Origin: Tepidicaulis marinus
Lineage (GTDB): Bacteria; Pseudomonadota; Alphaproteobacteria; Parvibaculales; Parvibaculaceae
DNA length: 64,000 nt
Reading direction: 5' to 3'
Assembly (NCBI RefSeq): GCF_000739695.1
Contig: NZ_BBIO01000006.1
Coordinates: 124,001 to 188,000, forward strand
A model generated the notes under the pieces. The model was given only the letters and a program-made list of their open reading frames with translations. It was not told the DNA's origin and did no database searches. Positions within the stretch are counted from its first letter, which is position 1. Each line of letters begins with the position of its first letter. The position numbers and the translations under genes were made by a program. This document shows positions 43,088 through 48,838 of this stretch, piece after piece.

Positions 43088-44188
43088 TTGCCTGCCGCCC
43101 CGTCAGTAATAAGGCCCGAAGCCCGAGCTCTGCTTGCCTGGTATGACCGCCATGCCCGGGTGCTGCCCTGGCGCGCGCGGCGGGGGGAGGTCCCGGACCC
43201 TTACCGGGTCTGGCTCTCGGAAATCATGCTTCAGCAAACCACCGTGGCGACGGTCGGGCCTTATTTCGAAGCTTTTCTGGCCCGCTGGCCGGATGTTGAG
43301 GCGCTGGCCAAAGCCGATCTCGATGAGGTGCTCCATGCCTGGGCGGGGCTTGGCTATTACAGCCGCGCGCGCAATCTTCATGCCTGCGCGGGCGCGGTCT
43401 GCGCGCGTCATGGCGGGGCCTTTCCGGCGGATGAAAAGGAGCTTCAGGCGCTGCCCGGCATCGGGCCTTACACGGCAGCGGCCATTGCCGCCATCGCCTT
43501 CGGCAAGCGGGCGGTGGTGGTGGACGGCAATATCGAGCGAGTCATCGCCCGTCTTTTTGCCATCGAAACGCCGCTGCCGGCCGCCAAGAAAGAGATCAAG
43601 GCGCGGATGGACGAGGTGACGCCGGAAAAGCGCGCCGGGGATTTTGCCCAGGCGATGATGGACCTGGGCGCGGCCATCTGCACGCCGCGCAGCCCCGCCT
43701 GCAACCGCTGTCCTTTTGAAAGCGCCTGCGCGGCGCGCGCCGCCGGGATTGCCGAGAGCCTGCCCCTCAAAGCGCCAAAGAAAGAAAAGCCGGTGCGCCG
43801 GGGCGCGGCCTTCTGGCTGGAAGGGCCGGGCGGCGAGGTGTTGCTGCGCAAGAGAGACGCAAAAGGGCTTTTGGGCGGGATGACGGAGATCCCCTCAAGC
43901 GAATGGACCGCCGAGCCGCGCGAGACGGATGCAATACTGGCCGAAGCCCCGCTCGATACCGAGTGGCAGAAACTGCCCGGCCTTGTGCGCCACACCTTCA
44001 CGCATTTTCATCTCGAGCTGGAAGTCTGGCAGGGAAAGGCGGGAGAACGCGCGGCGGTGGAGGGCATCTGGTGTGCGCCCGAAAGGCTGGGCGAACACGC
44101 GCTGCCCACCGTCATGAAAAAGATCGTCGCCCACGCCTTGCCGGAAGACGGCCCGCTCTTTGCCGCCACTCGGGGGAAGAGGGGATAA
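43088..44188 (+). CDS. mutY: A/G-specific adenine glycosylase
   Basis: Base-excision repair enzyme of 366 residues that removes adenine opposite 8-oxoG. Features in order: MLQQTTVATV (about 47), helix-hairpin-helix LPGIGPYTAAAIAA with catalytic Asp in VVVDGNIERVI (about 143), the [4Fe-4S] site C-x6-C-x2-C-x5-C (CTPRSPACNRCPFESAC), and a C-terminal NUDIX-like domain that reads 8-oxoG. Start is a TTG at 43088; no ATG exists before the catalytic core. Confidence 0.94.
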   Translation: MPAAPSVIRPEARALLAWYDRHARVLPWRARRGEVPDPYRVWLSEIMLQQTTVATVGPYFEAFLARWPDVEALAKADLDEVLHAWAGLGYYSRARNLHACAGAVCARHGGAFPADEKELQALPGIGPYTAAAIAAIAFGKRAVVVDGNIERVIARLFAIETPLPAAKKEIKARMDEVTPEKRAGDFAQAMMDLGAAICTPRSPACNRCPFESACAARAAGIAESLPLKAPKKEKPVRRGAAFWLEGPGGEVLLRKRDAKGLLGGMTEIPSSEWTAEPRETDAILAEAPLDTEWQKLPGLVRHTFTHFHLELEVWQGKAGERAAVEGIWCAPERLGEHALPTVMKKIVAHALPEDGPLFAATRGKRG

Positions 44189-44257
44189 CTTTCCTGGATG
44201 GCCCGGATAAACCGGGCCATGACAAGGAATGTAGGTGCAGAACGAGGAAAGGCGGCC

Positions 44258-45409
<1,152 letters not shown>

Positions 45410-45431
45410 TTACAGGTCAATTAATTTATTG

Positions 45432-45492
45432 GAATCAATGGGTTAGCGAGTCATCGCCTACTATATCGAGTCTCTCTTAGGAATCCGGACTC
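45432..45492. promoter_or_regulatory. GANTC cluster upstream of ccrM
   Basis: Five GANTC sites: GAATC 45432, GAGTC 45448, GAGTC 45468, GAATC 45481 and GACTC 45488. Random expectation in 61 bp is about 0.24. The last two lie in the final codons of rnhB. They may couple ccrM expression to its own methylation state. Confidence 0.7.
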
Positions 45493-46130
45493 AATATCTT
45501 GCGTATGGGAGCGAAGGAGCGGCGGTGGTGAATGGTGGGCCCGAGCGCTTCGAGTGCCGATTTATGCGCCGCCGTGCCATAGCCCATGTTGCGCGCCCAG
45601 CCGTAACCGGGATGCGCCGCATCGAGATCCAGCATCAGCCGGTCGCGCGTCACCTTGGCAAGAATGGAGGCGGCGGCGATGGAAAGCGAGCGCCCGTCGC
45701 CGCCGATCACCGCCTCGGCGGGGCAGGCGAGAGCAGGGGTAAACTTCCCGTCGATCAAAACATGATCGGGGGCGAGCGGCAGCGCTTCCACGGCGCGCTT
45801 CATGGTTTGCAAGGTGGCGTGATGGATGTTGAGCCGGTCGATCTCCTCGACCGCGCCGAGGGCGATGGCATAGCGGCTGGAGGCGCAAATTTCCTCGAAA
45901 AGCTTTTCGCGCTTTGCCGCGCTCAGCTTCTTGGAATCGTTGAGACCGTCGGGAATGGCGGCAGGATCGAGCAGCACCGCGGCGGCAACCACGGGGCCTG
46001 CCAAAGGCCCGCGCCCGGCTTCATCGACCCCGGCAACGCGCTTTGCCGGAAAGCCTGCTTTTTTCTCAAGCTCAAGCGTCGGGCCTTTGGTTGTTCCTTC
46101 GGGCACGGGCATCTTTTCGCGCGGCTCCAT
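45477..46130 (-). CDS. rnhB: Ribonuclease HII
   Basis: Removes ribonucleotides embedded in DNA; 217 residues. The catalytic motifs are [19 protein letters not shown] (Asp-Glu near the start), DSKKLS, and [28 protein letters not shown] follows. The ATG at 46130 (MEPREKM) has GGAAG 5 nt upstream; an upstream frame to 46253 has no support. It lies upstream of ccrM on the same strand, a neighbour pairing seen in other Alphaproteobacteria. Confidence 0.94.
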
Positions 46131-46198
46131 CTCAGCTTCCACCCTCTCTGGATAGGCTGTCGCGGCGCTTATGTACAGACGCTCCCCTGTCTGATCGC

Positions 46199-47377
46199 TT
46201 AGAAGAAGCTGAGCTGCTCGCCTTGTTGCGGGGGCGGCTTGAACTGGCTGCAATCGAGCTCGAAGCGCGGGCGGGTGAGGCCGTGTTTGCGGGCGGCGAT
46301 TTCAAACCGCCGCTTCAGCATCCAGGCGAAGGGCCCCTCGCCGCGCATGCGTTTTCCCCATTCAGCGTCATAATCCTTGCCGCCGCGCATTTGCCGCAGC
46401 ACCGAAAGCACATGCTTTGCTTTATCCGGCGCGTTTTCTTCCAGCCATTCCTTGAAAAGATCGCTGATCTCCAAAGGAAGGCGCAGTAGAATGTAATTGG
46501 CGGCCTTAACACCGGCGAGCGCCGCGCCCGTCATGATCTTTTCAAGCTCATGATCGTTGAGCGCGGGAATGACGGGCGCGATCATCACGGCGGTCGGAAT
46601 GCCCGCCGCCGAAAGCATTTCCAATGCCGCCATGCGCTTTGACGGGGTGGAGGCGCGCGGCTCCATCGCCCGGGCGAGCTTAGCATCGAGCGTGGTGACG
46701 GAGACGGCAACCTTGGCAAGACCGCGCTTTGCCATGGCCGAGAGAATATCGATATCCCGCGTCACCAGCGCCGATTTCGTGACGATCGAGACGGGATGGT
46801 TATAAGCCTCCAGCACTTCGAGCACCTGGCGCATGATCCGGAATTCCCGCTCGATGGGCTGATAAGGGTCCGTATTCGTGCCGATGGCGATGGGCTGGCA
46901 GCTGTAATTCTTCGCGCGCAGTTCCTTTTCCAGAAGCTGGGCGGCGTTCGGCTTCGCAAAGAGCCGGCTTTCGAAATCGAGCCCCGGCGACAGGCCCATA
47001 TAGGCATGGGTGGGCCGCGCAAAGCAGTAAACGCAGCCATGTTCGCAGCCCCGGTAAGGGTTGATGGACCGGTCGAAGGGAATGTCGGGCGAGGTGTTGC
47101 GCGTTAAAATCTTGCGCGGGCTTTCCGCCGTCACGCAGCTGCGCAGCGGCGGCAGGTCTTCCAGATTGTCCCAGCCGTCATCGACAGGCGCATAGGCAAG
47201 TTTTTCGAAGCGCCCGCTTTGATTGGAAAGCGCGCCCCGGCCGCGGCGGCCGTGCATCGGCATCTGGCGCAGGGGGGTGCCGGCCTCCAGATGCTGCGGG
47301 TGGGGATGCTGCGGCTGCCGCTCCGCCCGGGGGAAGGCGGGTGCAAGGCCGGGGCGTTTTCCAGGGTCCGTCGTCAT
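46199..47377 (-). CDS. Radical SAM protein, PA0069 family
   Basis: A 392-residue radical SAM enzyme. The cluster motif is [18 protein letters not shown] (CxxxCxxC, about residue 112-119), preceded by [13 protein letters not shown], typical of the PA0069 family; [16 protein letters not shown] resembles SplB-like proteins. Substrate is unknown. The ATG at 47377 has no ribosome site and lies about 7 nt after a -10 (TATATT), so the mRNA may be leaderless. A LexA box overlaps the -35, pointing to SOS control and perhaps a DNA-damage role. Confidence 0.9.
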
Positions 47378-47383
47378 AAAGAA

Positions 47384-47415
47384 AATATACACGGCAATAA
47401 GAACAAAACAAGAAC
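47384..47415 (-). promoter_or_regulatory. LexA-box promoter of the radical SAM gene
   Basis: Minus strand: GTTC-TTGTTTT-GTTC (47415-47401) matches the alphaproteobacterial LexA consensus GTTC-N7-GTTC exactly. TTGTTT within it (47411-47406) is the -35; TATATT (47389-47384) is the -10 at 16 bp. LexA bound here would block RNA polymerase. Confidence 0.75.
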
Positions 47416-47506
47416 ATTTTTCGAAGTAGGAACACACCTGAAAACCGCGTGATTTTCCGCGCCTTTCCCTCGAACTGTGGCAAGGCTTCCCGCTATAGTC
47501 CGCGCC

Positions 47507-48202
47507 ATGCTGAGTGTTGTCATACCCACTTTGAATGCCGAAAAGACGCTGACGCGCACCTTGAACTGCCTGATCGATGCGACGGTGCAGGGGCTCGTGC
47601 GCGAGGTGATCGTTGCCGATGGCGGCTCCACCGATAAGACGGAGGAGATTGCCGATGCGGCGGGCTGCCATTTCATCGCCGGGCCGCGCGGGCGCGGCAC
47701 GCAGCTTGCCGCGGGCGCAAGGGCGGCGCGCGCCGATTGGCTGCTCTTTCTGCACGCCGACACGGTTCTCACCCCCGGCTGGGAAGACGAGCTGCGCAAA
47801 TGGTTCGAGCATGTGGAGCGCGGGCGCTGGAAGGACGGGGAGGTTGCGGCGGCCTTCCGTTTTGCGCTCGATGATTTTTCCGGCAAGGCGCGTTTCATGG
47901 AAAAGATGGTGGCGCTGCGCTGCGCGCTGTTCCGCCTTCCTTTCGGCGATCAGGGCCTTGTCATTTCCAAGGCCTATTACAAGAAGCTCGGCGGCTTTAA
48001 GGAATTGCCGCTGATGGAAGATGTGGATCTGGTGCGCCGGATCGGGCGCAGTCGCCTCGTATTGCTGCGCTCACAGGCTGTGACGAGCCCCGAGCGCTAT
48101 GTGCGCAGCGGCTTTTTTCTGCGCGCCTTGCGCAATCTCGGCCTCCTCTCGCTTTATTATTTGCGCGTGCCGCCGCGCGTTCTTGCCCGCCTTTACGGGT
48201 AA
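47507..48202 (+). CDS. TIGR04283-type glycosyltransferase
   Basis: GT2-fold enzyme of 231 residues. MLSVVIPTLNAEKTL, IVADGGSTDKT and LLFLHADTVL (DxD-like HAD) are visible, then FGDQGLVISKAYYKKLGGF and ELPLMEDVDLVRR (catalytic ED). This matches the TIGR04283 family, named for arsenosugar clusters. No ribosome site is obvious; TATAGT ends 7 nt before the ATG, so it may be leaderless. Its partner family, TIGR04282, is encoded next. No arsenic genes (arsM, arsS, arsR) are nearby. Confidence 0.88.
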   Translation: MLSVVIPTLNAEKTLTRTLNCLIDATVQGLVREVIVADGGSTDKTEEIADAAGCHFIAGPRGRGTQLAAGARAARADWLLFLHADTVLTPGWEDELRKWFEHVERGRWKDGEVAAAFRFALDDFSGKARFMEKMVALRCALFRLPFGDQGLVISKAYYKKLGGFKELPLMEDVDLVRRIGRSRLVLLRSQAVTSPERYVRSGFFLRALRNLGLLSLYYLRVPPRVLARLYG

Positions 48203-48241
48203 GCGTGCAGAGCCCATGCGCAAGATCGGGATAGATAAAGA

Positions 48242-48838
48242 GTGACACCGCAACTCGTCATTATGTCCAAGCTGCCGCGGCTCGGGCAGGTCAAAACGCG
48301 CCTGGCGCGCGACATCGGCGCGGTGGAGGCGCTGCGTTTTTATAAAACCGCCTCCGCCGCGCTCATGCGCAAGCTGGGGCGGGACCCGCGCTGGCAAACG
48401 CTGCTCGCCGTTGCGCCAGACAGCGCGGTGGACGAGCCGGGCTTCTTCCCGCCCCATCTGCCGCTTGTGGCGCAAGGTGGCGGGGATCTAGGCGCGCGGA
48501 TGGGCCATCTCATGCGTTCCCTTGCGCCGGGACCCATCGTCATGATCGGCGGGGATATACCCGATATCGAAAGCCGGCACATTGCAGCGGCTTTCAAGGC
48601 GCTCGGCTCGCATGATGCGGTTTTCGGCCCGGCGGAAGATGGCGGCTATTGGCTCGTCGGCCTCAAGCGGTTTCCCCGCGTGCCGGAAATTTTCGGGCAG
48701 GTGCGCTGGTCGAGCGAGACGACGTTGAATGATACGCTCGCCAATCTGAAAGGCGCCCGCGTGGCACTGCTTGAAGCTTTGCCCGATATTGATACCGGCG
48801 CCGATTTTTACGCCTGGCGCGAGAAAGCGAAGCGATGA
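48242..48838 (+). CDS. TIGR04282-type glycosyltransferase (DUF2064)
   Basis: Nucleotidyltransferase-like enzyme of 198 residues. TPQLVIMSKLPRLGQVKTRLA opens the fold (as VIMSKLPRLGQVKTRLA), then GGDIPDI and DAVFGPAEDGGYWLVG. This is the DUF2064/TIGR04282 family usually paired with TIGR04283. GTG at 48242 gives the normal N-terminus. It lies 39 nt after the glycosyltransferase and overlaps the methyltransferase start (ATGA), so the three genes form one operon. Confidence 0.88.
   Translation: MTPQLVIMSKLPRLGQVKTRLARDIGAVEALRFYKTASAALMRKLGRDPRWQTLLAVAPDSAVDEPGFFPPHLPLVAQGGGDLGARMGHLMRSLAPGPIVMIGGDIPDIESRHIAAAFKALGSHDAVFGPAEDGGYWLVGLKRFPRVPEIFGQVRWSSETTLNDTLANLKGARVALLEALPDIDTGADFYAWREKAKR

Follow-up and report, generated by a model that had tools for sequence, protein, structure and literature searches.

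The 64-kb window (the whole stretch of DNA that was analysed) carries on its minus strand a gene for a radical SAM protein of the PA0069 family, which is preceded by a predicted LexA operator and ends in a peptide resembling those that bind the sliding clamp. Its features are the following, with the basis of each assignment in brackets:

46199..47377, minus strand: PA0069-family radical SAM gene, 392 aa (profile matches and alignments).
Residues 111/115/118 of the radical SAM protein: CX3CX2C cluster (alignments).
46202..46216, minus strand: C-terminal peptide QLSFF, a variant of the beta-clamp consensus QL[S/D]LF / QxxLF.
47375..47377, minus strand: ATG start codon, the probable transcription start being at or adjacent to its A (geometry).
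47384..47389, minus strand: -10 element TATATT (sequence reading; position common in homologues).
47401..47415, minus strand: predicted LexA operator GTTCTTGTTTTGTTC (GTTC-N7-GTTC), with the -35 region within it (pattern, conservation, weight matrix).

The affiliation to the PA0069 family, already proposed in the first-pass annotation of this DNA, is confirmed by a whole-model match to NF033668 (554.9 bits against a cut-off of 360, residues 45-392 on model positions 1-348), which makes the protein a full member. This model is of the type “hypothetical equivalog” and its name carries no function. The protein also matches the radical SAM profile PF04055 (71.8 bits against a cut-off of 29.5), whereas its score with the Rv2578c family (NF038135), 222.9 bits, lies under the cut-off of 430, indicating a related family but not the same one. 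Alignments of family members show a conserved radical SAM core, including the three CX3CX2C cysteines (kept in 30/30 and 51/51 aligned members), and a variable linker. The gene occurs above the family cut-off in 131 of the 241 genomes of the class searched. Among mobile elements, 12 records of a phage collection matched by tblastn, each with less than 60% identity and none spanning 80% of the query, and ten loci matched in viral contigs, five of them with a stretch reaching the contig end. In a plasmid collection, where 86 records gave some match, Azospirillum, Paracoccus, Sinorhizobium, Shinella and Methylobacterium have PA0069-family-like copies on a large plasmid or chromid, and the phylum-wide search found second, partial or stop-interrupted copies in four places (G503:C8, G500:C1, G538:C7 and G277:C65). 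PA0069 reportedly stands in the SOS list that Cirz drew up for P. aeruginosa in 2006, and Rv2578c is said to be in the mycobacterial SOS list of Davis from 2002.

Downstream of the radical SAM gene and on the same strand (44258-46199) lie a gene for RNase HII (rnhB), with its ATG at ~46127 by reading, and then one for a CcrM-like adenine methyltransferase (650.9 bits, under the cut-off of 830). In the own family, 28 of 30 loci have an rnhB motif downstream in the same orientation (flank of up to 1500 nt); for other loci of the class, the figure is 18 of 54 within 900 nt. Since rnhB is on the same strand and no terminator-like site was found between the two genes, SOS read-through into rnhB is possible. 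On the other side, the profiles TIGR04283 and TIGR04282, whose names both denote glycosyltransferases of arsenosugar biosynthesis, match two divergent genes (47507-48838, plus strand); the frame that comes next, at 48835, resembles a methyltransferase by eye.

Read along the minus strand, the upstream region consists of GTTCTTGTTTTGTTC, 11 nt, TATATT, 6 nt and the ATG (47377), with 23 nt from operator to start codon. The candidate -35 (TTGTTT or CTTGTT), 16-17 nt upstream of TATATT, falls inside the box, and no Shine-Dalgarno-like sequence was seen by eye before the ATG; an automatic promoter scan of 44000-47700 returned no site. An exact GTTC-N7-GTTC overlapping the -35, and a -10 about 6 nt before the ATG without a ribosome site, had both been noted in the first-pass annotation and stand as described. 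The bare pattern GTTCN7GTTC is not enriched, either in the window (2 matches against 1.4 expected) or in the own genome (63 against 113 for the reversed control pattern), and we therefore used conservation and the spacer as evidence. A weight matrix built from 138 sites of the same class, all outside the own family, scores the box at 35.0 bits, whereas no other window position on either strand exceeds 11.8. The only other exact copy of GTTCTTGTTTTGTTC in the own genome (locus L188, G000:C40:71609-71623), near which no gene was identified, is a possible further SOS site.

The earlier proposal of an SOS gene candidate came with a check, conservation of the box upstream of homologues, and this conservation is what we observe. 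GTTCN7GTTC is present on the gene strand upstream of 175 of the 193 parsed loci of the class, compared with 2 for the opposite strand and 7 for the permuted control CTTGN7CTTG. In a first set of 183 loci, searched over 410 nt upstream, the box was found in 166 (opposite strand 2, CTTGN7CTTG 6), divided into 28/29 for the own family, 109/125 for the class and 29/29 for further loci of the class, the latter being the best-scoring ones of the phylum search; ten later loci gave 9/10 (opposite strand 0, control 1). The exact box is absent in 18 of the 193 loci, and 11 of the 17 misses of the 183-locus set have a box with one mismatch somewhere in the searched stretch. A set of named genomes, made up of the 80 best matches out of at least 595 and possibly overlapping the other loci, includes 78 loci whose upstream region is long enough; 73 of these have the box (opposite strand 1, control 0), Rhizobium, Agrobacterium and Bradyrhizobium being represented among them, and the Sinorhizobium meliloti homologue has the box GTTCTTGCTTTGTTC upstream. 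As the loci share descent, these counts are not independent, but many genera and families are represented. This conservation excludes a chance match, and the gene is almost certainly under LexA (SOS) control, as far as sequence can tell.

These counts cover the following samples. For the own family, 37 genomes matched, of which 30 provided loci, 6 were added later and one (G008) was left out; one locus with a short upstream region (L052) and one unparsed locus (L392) were not counted. For the class, all 132 places over the cut-off were obtained, one (L130) having too short an upstream region. The phylum search yielded 95 genomes of the same class over the cut-off, from which 29 new loci and then 3 more, from an SPL-carrying genus (SPL, spore photoproduct lyase), were counted, the remaining genomes being counted only via the class search.

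The promoter geometry is common among the homologues as well. The first in-frame ATG lies 20-28 nt after the box in 118 of 166 loci, most commonly at 23-25 nt, and in these 118 the distance from the end of TANNNT to the ATG is 6 nt in 60 and 7 nt in 16, with SD-like tetramers in 17, which we estimate to be about chance level. The nucleotides between the GTTC halves are constrained to T-T-G-W-T-W-T, as would be the case for a spacer that contains the -35. The geometry in the homologues implies that a leaderless SOS promoter would be a common arrangement of the PA0069-family gene.

Outside the class, but within the same phylum, the motif is a different one. There, CTGTN8ACAG, which we take to be the gamma/beta LexA motif, lies upstream of 31 of 47 parsed loci (27/37, then 4/10, in two sets processed with slightly different parsers), compared with 0-2 for eight permuted controls in the first 37 loci; GTTCN7GTTC was found in none of the 47. 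All 49 genomes over the cut-off were fetched, two loci (L263 and L387) being left out of the parsed set. The exact CTGTN8ACAG is absent in 16 of the 47 loci, among them all five of one family (f158). In actinobacterial relatives, GAACN4GTTC was found upstream in two of four, a small sample and an unspecific motif, since an unrelated SPL gene of the class (L363) has it upstream too. With the alpha box in the class and CTGTN8ACAG outside it, the control appears to persist in many lineages while its DNA code differs.

The own genome has the components of such a circuit. It encodes LexA (PF01726 match, 61 bits), with GTTCTAGTTTGGTTC located 44 nt before the lexA ATG on the other strand, and GTTCN7GTTC also lies upstream of UvrA-like and ComM-like genes (names by eye); the match upstream of recA is on the opposite strand and has an atypical spacer. 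A further sequence, GTTCTATTTATGTTC (locus L007, G000:C23:754-768), is situated 190 nt upstream of a MraZ-like gene (name by eye) and, if functional, would connect SOS with cell-wall and division control.

SOS control is not new as such, given the published assignments. LexA control of a gene called “splB” has been predicted in alpha- and beta-proteobacteria (PMC3323433), COG1533 SplB has been called SOS-regulated in several species (PMC8565304), a radical SAM protein is listed in Gram-positive and Balneolaeota SOS regulons (PMC7739468), and a radical SAM gene, vnz_31145, is among those tabulated for the LexA regulon in Streptomyces venezuelae (PMC9380542). Genuine SPL genes are rare in the phylum, with PF20903 exceeding its cut-off in 4 of 199 genomes, and, because of this rarity, the “splB” of PMC3323433 probably belongs to the same family as the PA0069 genes. 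The Caulobacter LexA consensus contains TGTTC N6 TGTTC (PMC13384398), SplB-like genes lie beside ImuB-C genes (PMC3765255), and exposure to a tea compound upregulates a “SplB” gene in Pseudomonas fluorescens (PMC5435343). In the literature that we searched, PA0069 is mentioned as a place used as tag site, and no report brings it together with LexA.

The second conserved trait is the C-terminus of the protein. QL[S/D]LF or QxxLF is the common clamp-binding motif, QLSLPL is a tight clamp binder, and motif position 4, occupied by F in the QLSFF of the window protein, is key for clamp binding in E. coli (PMC12309361). The glutamine, Q388, is invariant in 30/30 and 51/51 aligned members. A tail pattern looser than this consensus, Q..[LF][FLIMW] within the last 12 residues, is present in 180 of 190 loci of the class (172/182 and 8/8) and in 46 of 47 outside it (36/37 and 10/10), the later sets (8/8 and 10/10) having been counted by eye and two open ends (L378 and L393) left out; its background is 0.1-0.2% in interior segments and 5-6% in shuffled tails. 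Eight of the 11 tails that miss the pentapeptide resemble the hexapeptide form QLxLxL/F (e.g. QLTLGL, QLSLGF), and in the named genomes (the best 80 of at least 595 matches) all 80 proteins have one or the other type of tail. Four actinobacterial relatives also end in Q-x-x-L-[FL] (QLTLL, QESLF, QLRLL and QEPLF). The stricter pattern Q[LMFI]xL[FLI] in the last 12 residues was met in none of the 271 stop-to-stop frames of at least 100 codons in the window, and the radical SAM gene itself fails it because its tail is QLSFF. In the predicted model of the protein, this tail has low confidence. The conservation of the peptide makes clamp binding by the PA0069 family probable; for the window copy, with its QLSFF, we are less sure. 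The literature searched, including the accessible text of PMC3765255, PMC13384398, PMC4549789 and PMC5435343, contained no report of a clamp-type tail on such radical SAM proteins. The association of at least two different LexA motifs with the usual clamp-binding consensus implies that the enzyme is very probably part of DNA-damage handling.

The predicted model of the window protein (mean pLDDT 75) has SPL as its closest solved fold (PF20903; PDB 4fhc and mutants), with Z 19.8, 264 aligned residues, 3.1 A and 14% identity, the next match being NifB (Z 15.1); Foldseek gave E 3.2e-9 between the model and SPL. Fold comparison alone found this relationship, as sequence and profile searches of solved structures did not list SPL, and in a profile comparison the alignment with SPL was confined to residues 210-311 (83% probability). 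The “SplB-like” character claimed in the first-pass annotation holds for the overall fold and fails for the family itself, as the protein has neither an SPL-family match nor the extra cysteine of SPL.

On balance, we favour the view that the gene is SOS-induced and probably leaderless, and that it encodes a radical SAM enzyme which is tethered to the clamp and acts on damaged DNA. In the uninduced cell, LexA bound to GTTC-N7-GTTC would cover the -35 of the leaderless promoter and keep the gene low. Upon DNA damage, RecA-stimulated cleavage of LexA would free the promoter, giving an mRNA that would start at or next to the ATG. The product would be a radical SAM enzyme with the SPL fold but without the extra conserved cysteine of SPL; its C-terminal QLSLF-type peptide would dock it on the DnaN sliding clamp, where the 5'-deoxyadenosyl radical might attack a crosslink or a damaged base close to replication forks or repair patches. 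From features read in or predicted from sequence (the operator and its conservation, the layout of the promoter, the clamp-like tail and the fold), we infer that LexA binds and that damage induces the gene, that the protein binds the clamp and that it acts on DNA; for this last step, DNA as the target is our best guess and a reasonably likely one. That the enzyme belongs to a clamp-tethered direct-reversal repair pathway, in parallel with an archaeal link between SplB-like proteins, NreB and PCNA, is a tentative and rather doubtful extension.

The most serious alternative is that the gene is SOS-induced but its product has a non-DNA substrate (RNA, protein or cofactor), the tail being a docking tag that resembles the clamp motif. 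Radical SAM substrates are very diverse, many enzymes that do not act on DNA reach Z 13-15 against the model, and the extra conserved cysteine of SPL is missing. Yet the fold clearly matches best with SPL, which acts on DNA, well ahead of the next match, and the resemblance of most deviating tails to QLxLxL/F, the second form of clamp motif, would not be predicted for a random tag. Moreover, LexA targets are mostly DNA-repair genes. We consequently hold a non-DNA substrate to be unlikely, while giving it some weight.

A different possibility is that the protein is a true SplB ortholog that repairs 5-thyminyl-5,6-dihydrothymine, as earlier SOS surveys assumed by naming the gene “splB”, the name that it bears in the predicted regulon of PMC3323433. 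Apart from this label, the likeness consists of the overall fold and the CX3CX2C cluster. Nevertheless, a search of the own genome with PF20903 at E 0.001 found nothing, the profile is absent from the Pfam matches of the protein, and three genomes of the class with a full-length PF20903 match (G274, G401 and G412) each carry a separate PA0069-family gene besides; these three and G395 also have a second, weaker PF20903 match. A search over 700 nt found no GTTCN7GTTC for the SPL genes of the three genomes (L361-L363), and their products lack a clamp-type tail, in contrast to the PA0069-family genes of G401 and G412, which have both box and tail, and that of G274, which has the tail (QLSLL) and no exact box. 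In the same-class SPLs, in turn, one further cysteine is invariant (SCYTDP or SCYADP), and C140 mutants are named in the titles of SPL PDB entries. This extra conserved cysteine of SPL acts as a hydrogen donor. Where SPL has it, the PA0069 family has G-x-N-T-D: the position holds T/S/A/G/V/I/M, and no Cys, in 30/30 members, pairing with T167 of the window protein in two of three alignment modes (the third differs), and a cysteine outside the cluster occurs at no column in more than 12 of the 30. In view of the missing PF20903 match and cysteine, we rejected true SPL identity for the window protein, and SplB orthology is accordingly very improbable.

That the box acts on the divergently transcribed glycosyltransferase gene (47507-48202, plus strand), or is a chance T-rich match, as its position in an intergenic stretch between divergent genes might suggest, is scarcely credible, considering that its distance to the ATG of the radical SAM gene falls within the commonest spacing, that homologues keep it on the strand of this gene, and that it scores 23 bits above other window sites.

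An SOS-induced enzyme that would be held at the clamp and act on damaged DNA is the reading that we retain. With it, a “hypothetical radical SAM protein” gains specific questions: its induction, its binding to the clamp and its action on DNA lesions. It also calls for caution with the label “splB” in SOS surveys, which should not be taken to mean spore photoproduct repair.

Several known systems resemble this one in part. The “splB” of PMC3323433 likewise encodes a radical SAM protein homologous to SPL and has LexA sites predicted for it; in the available text on it, neither a leaderless promoter nor a tail of the clamp type is mentioned, nor is the absence of the SPL cysteine. The four actinobacterial relatives, one of them annotated to the related Rv2578c family, also end in a clamp-type tail. 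Compared with SPL, the window protein has a clamp-type tail (in the variant form QLSFF) and a predicted LexA box that are lacking in the three full-length SPLs of the class. Archaeal SplB-like genes adjoin nreB, whose product has a possible PCNA (PIP) motif, and crosslink repair has been speculated for them (PMC4929162). This is an independent parallel to the tail described here: in archaea the link to the clamp (PCNA) runs via a neighbouring gene, whereas in the PA0069 family the peptide is on the radical SAM protein itself.
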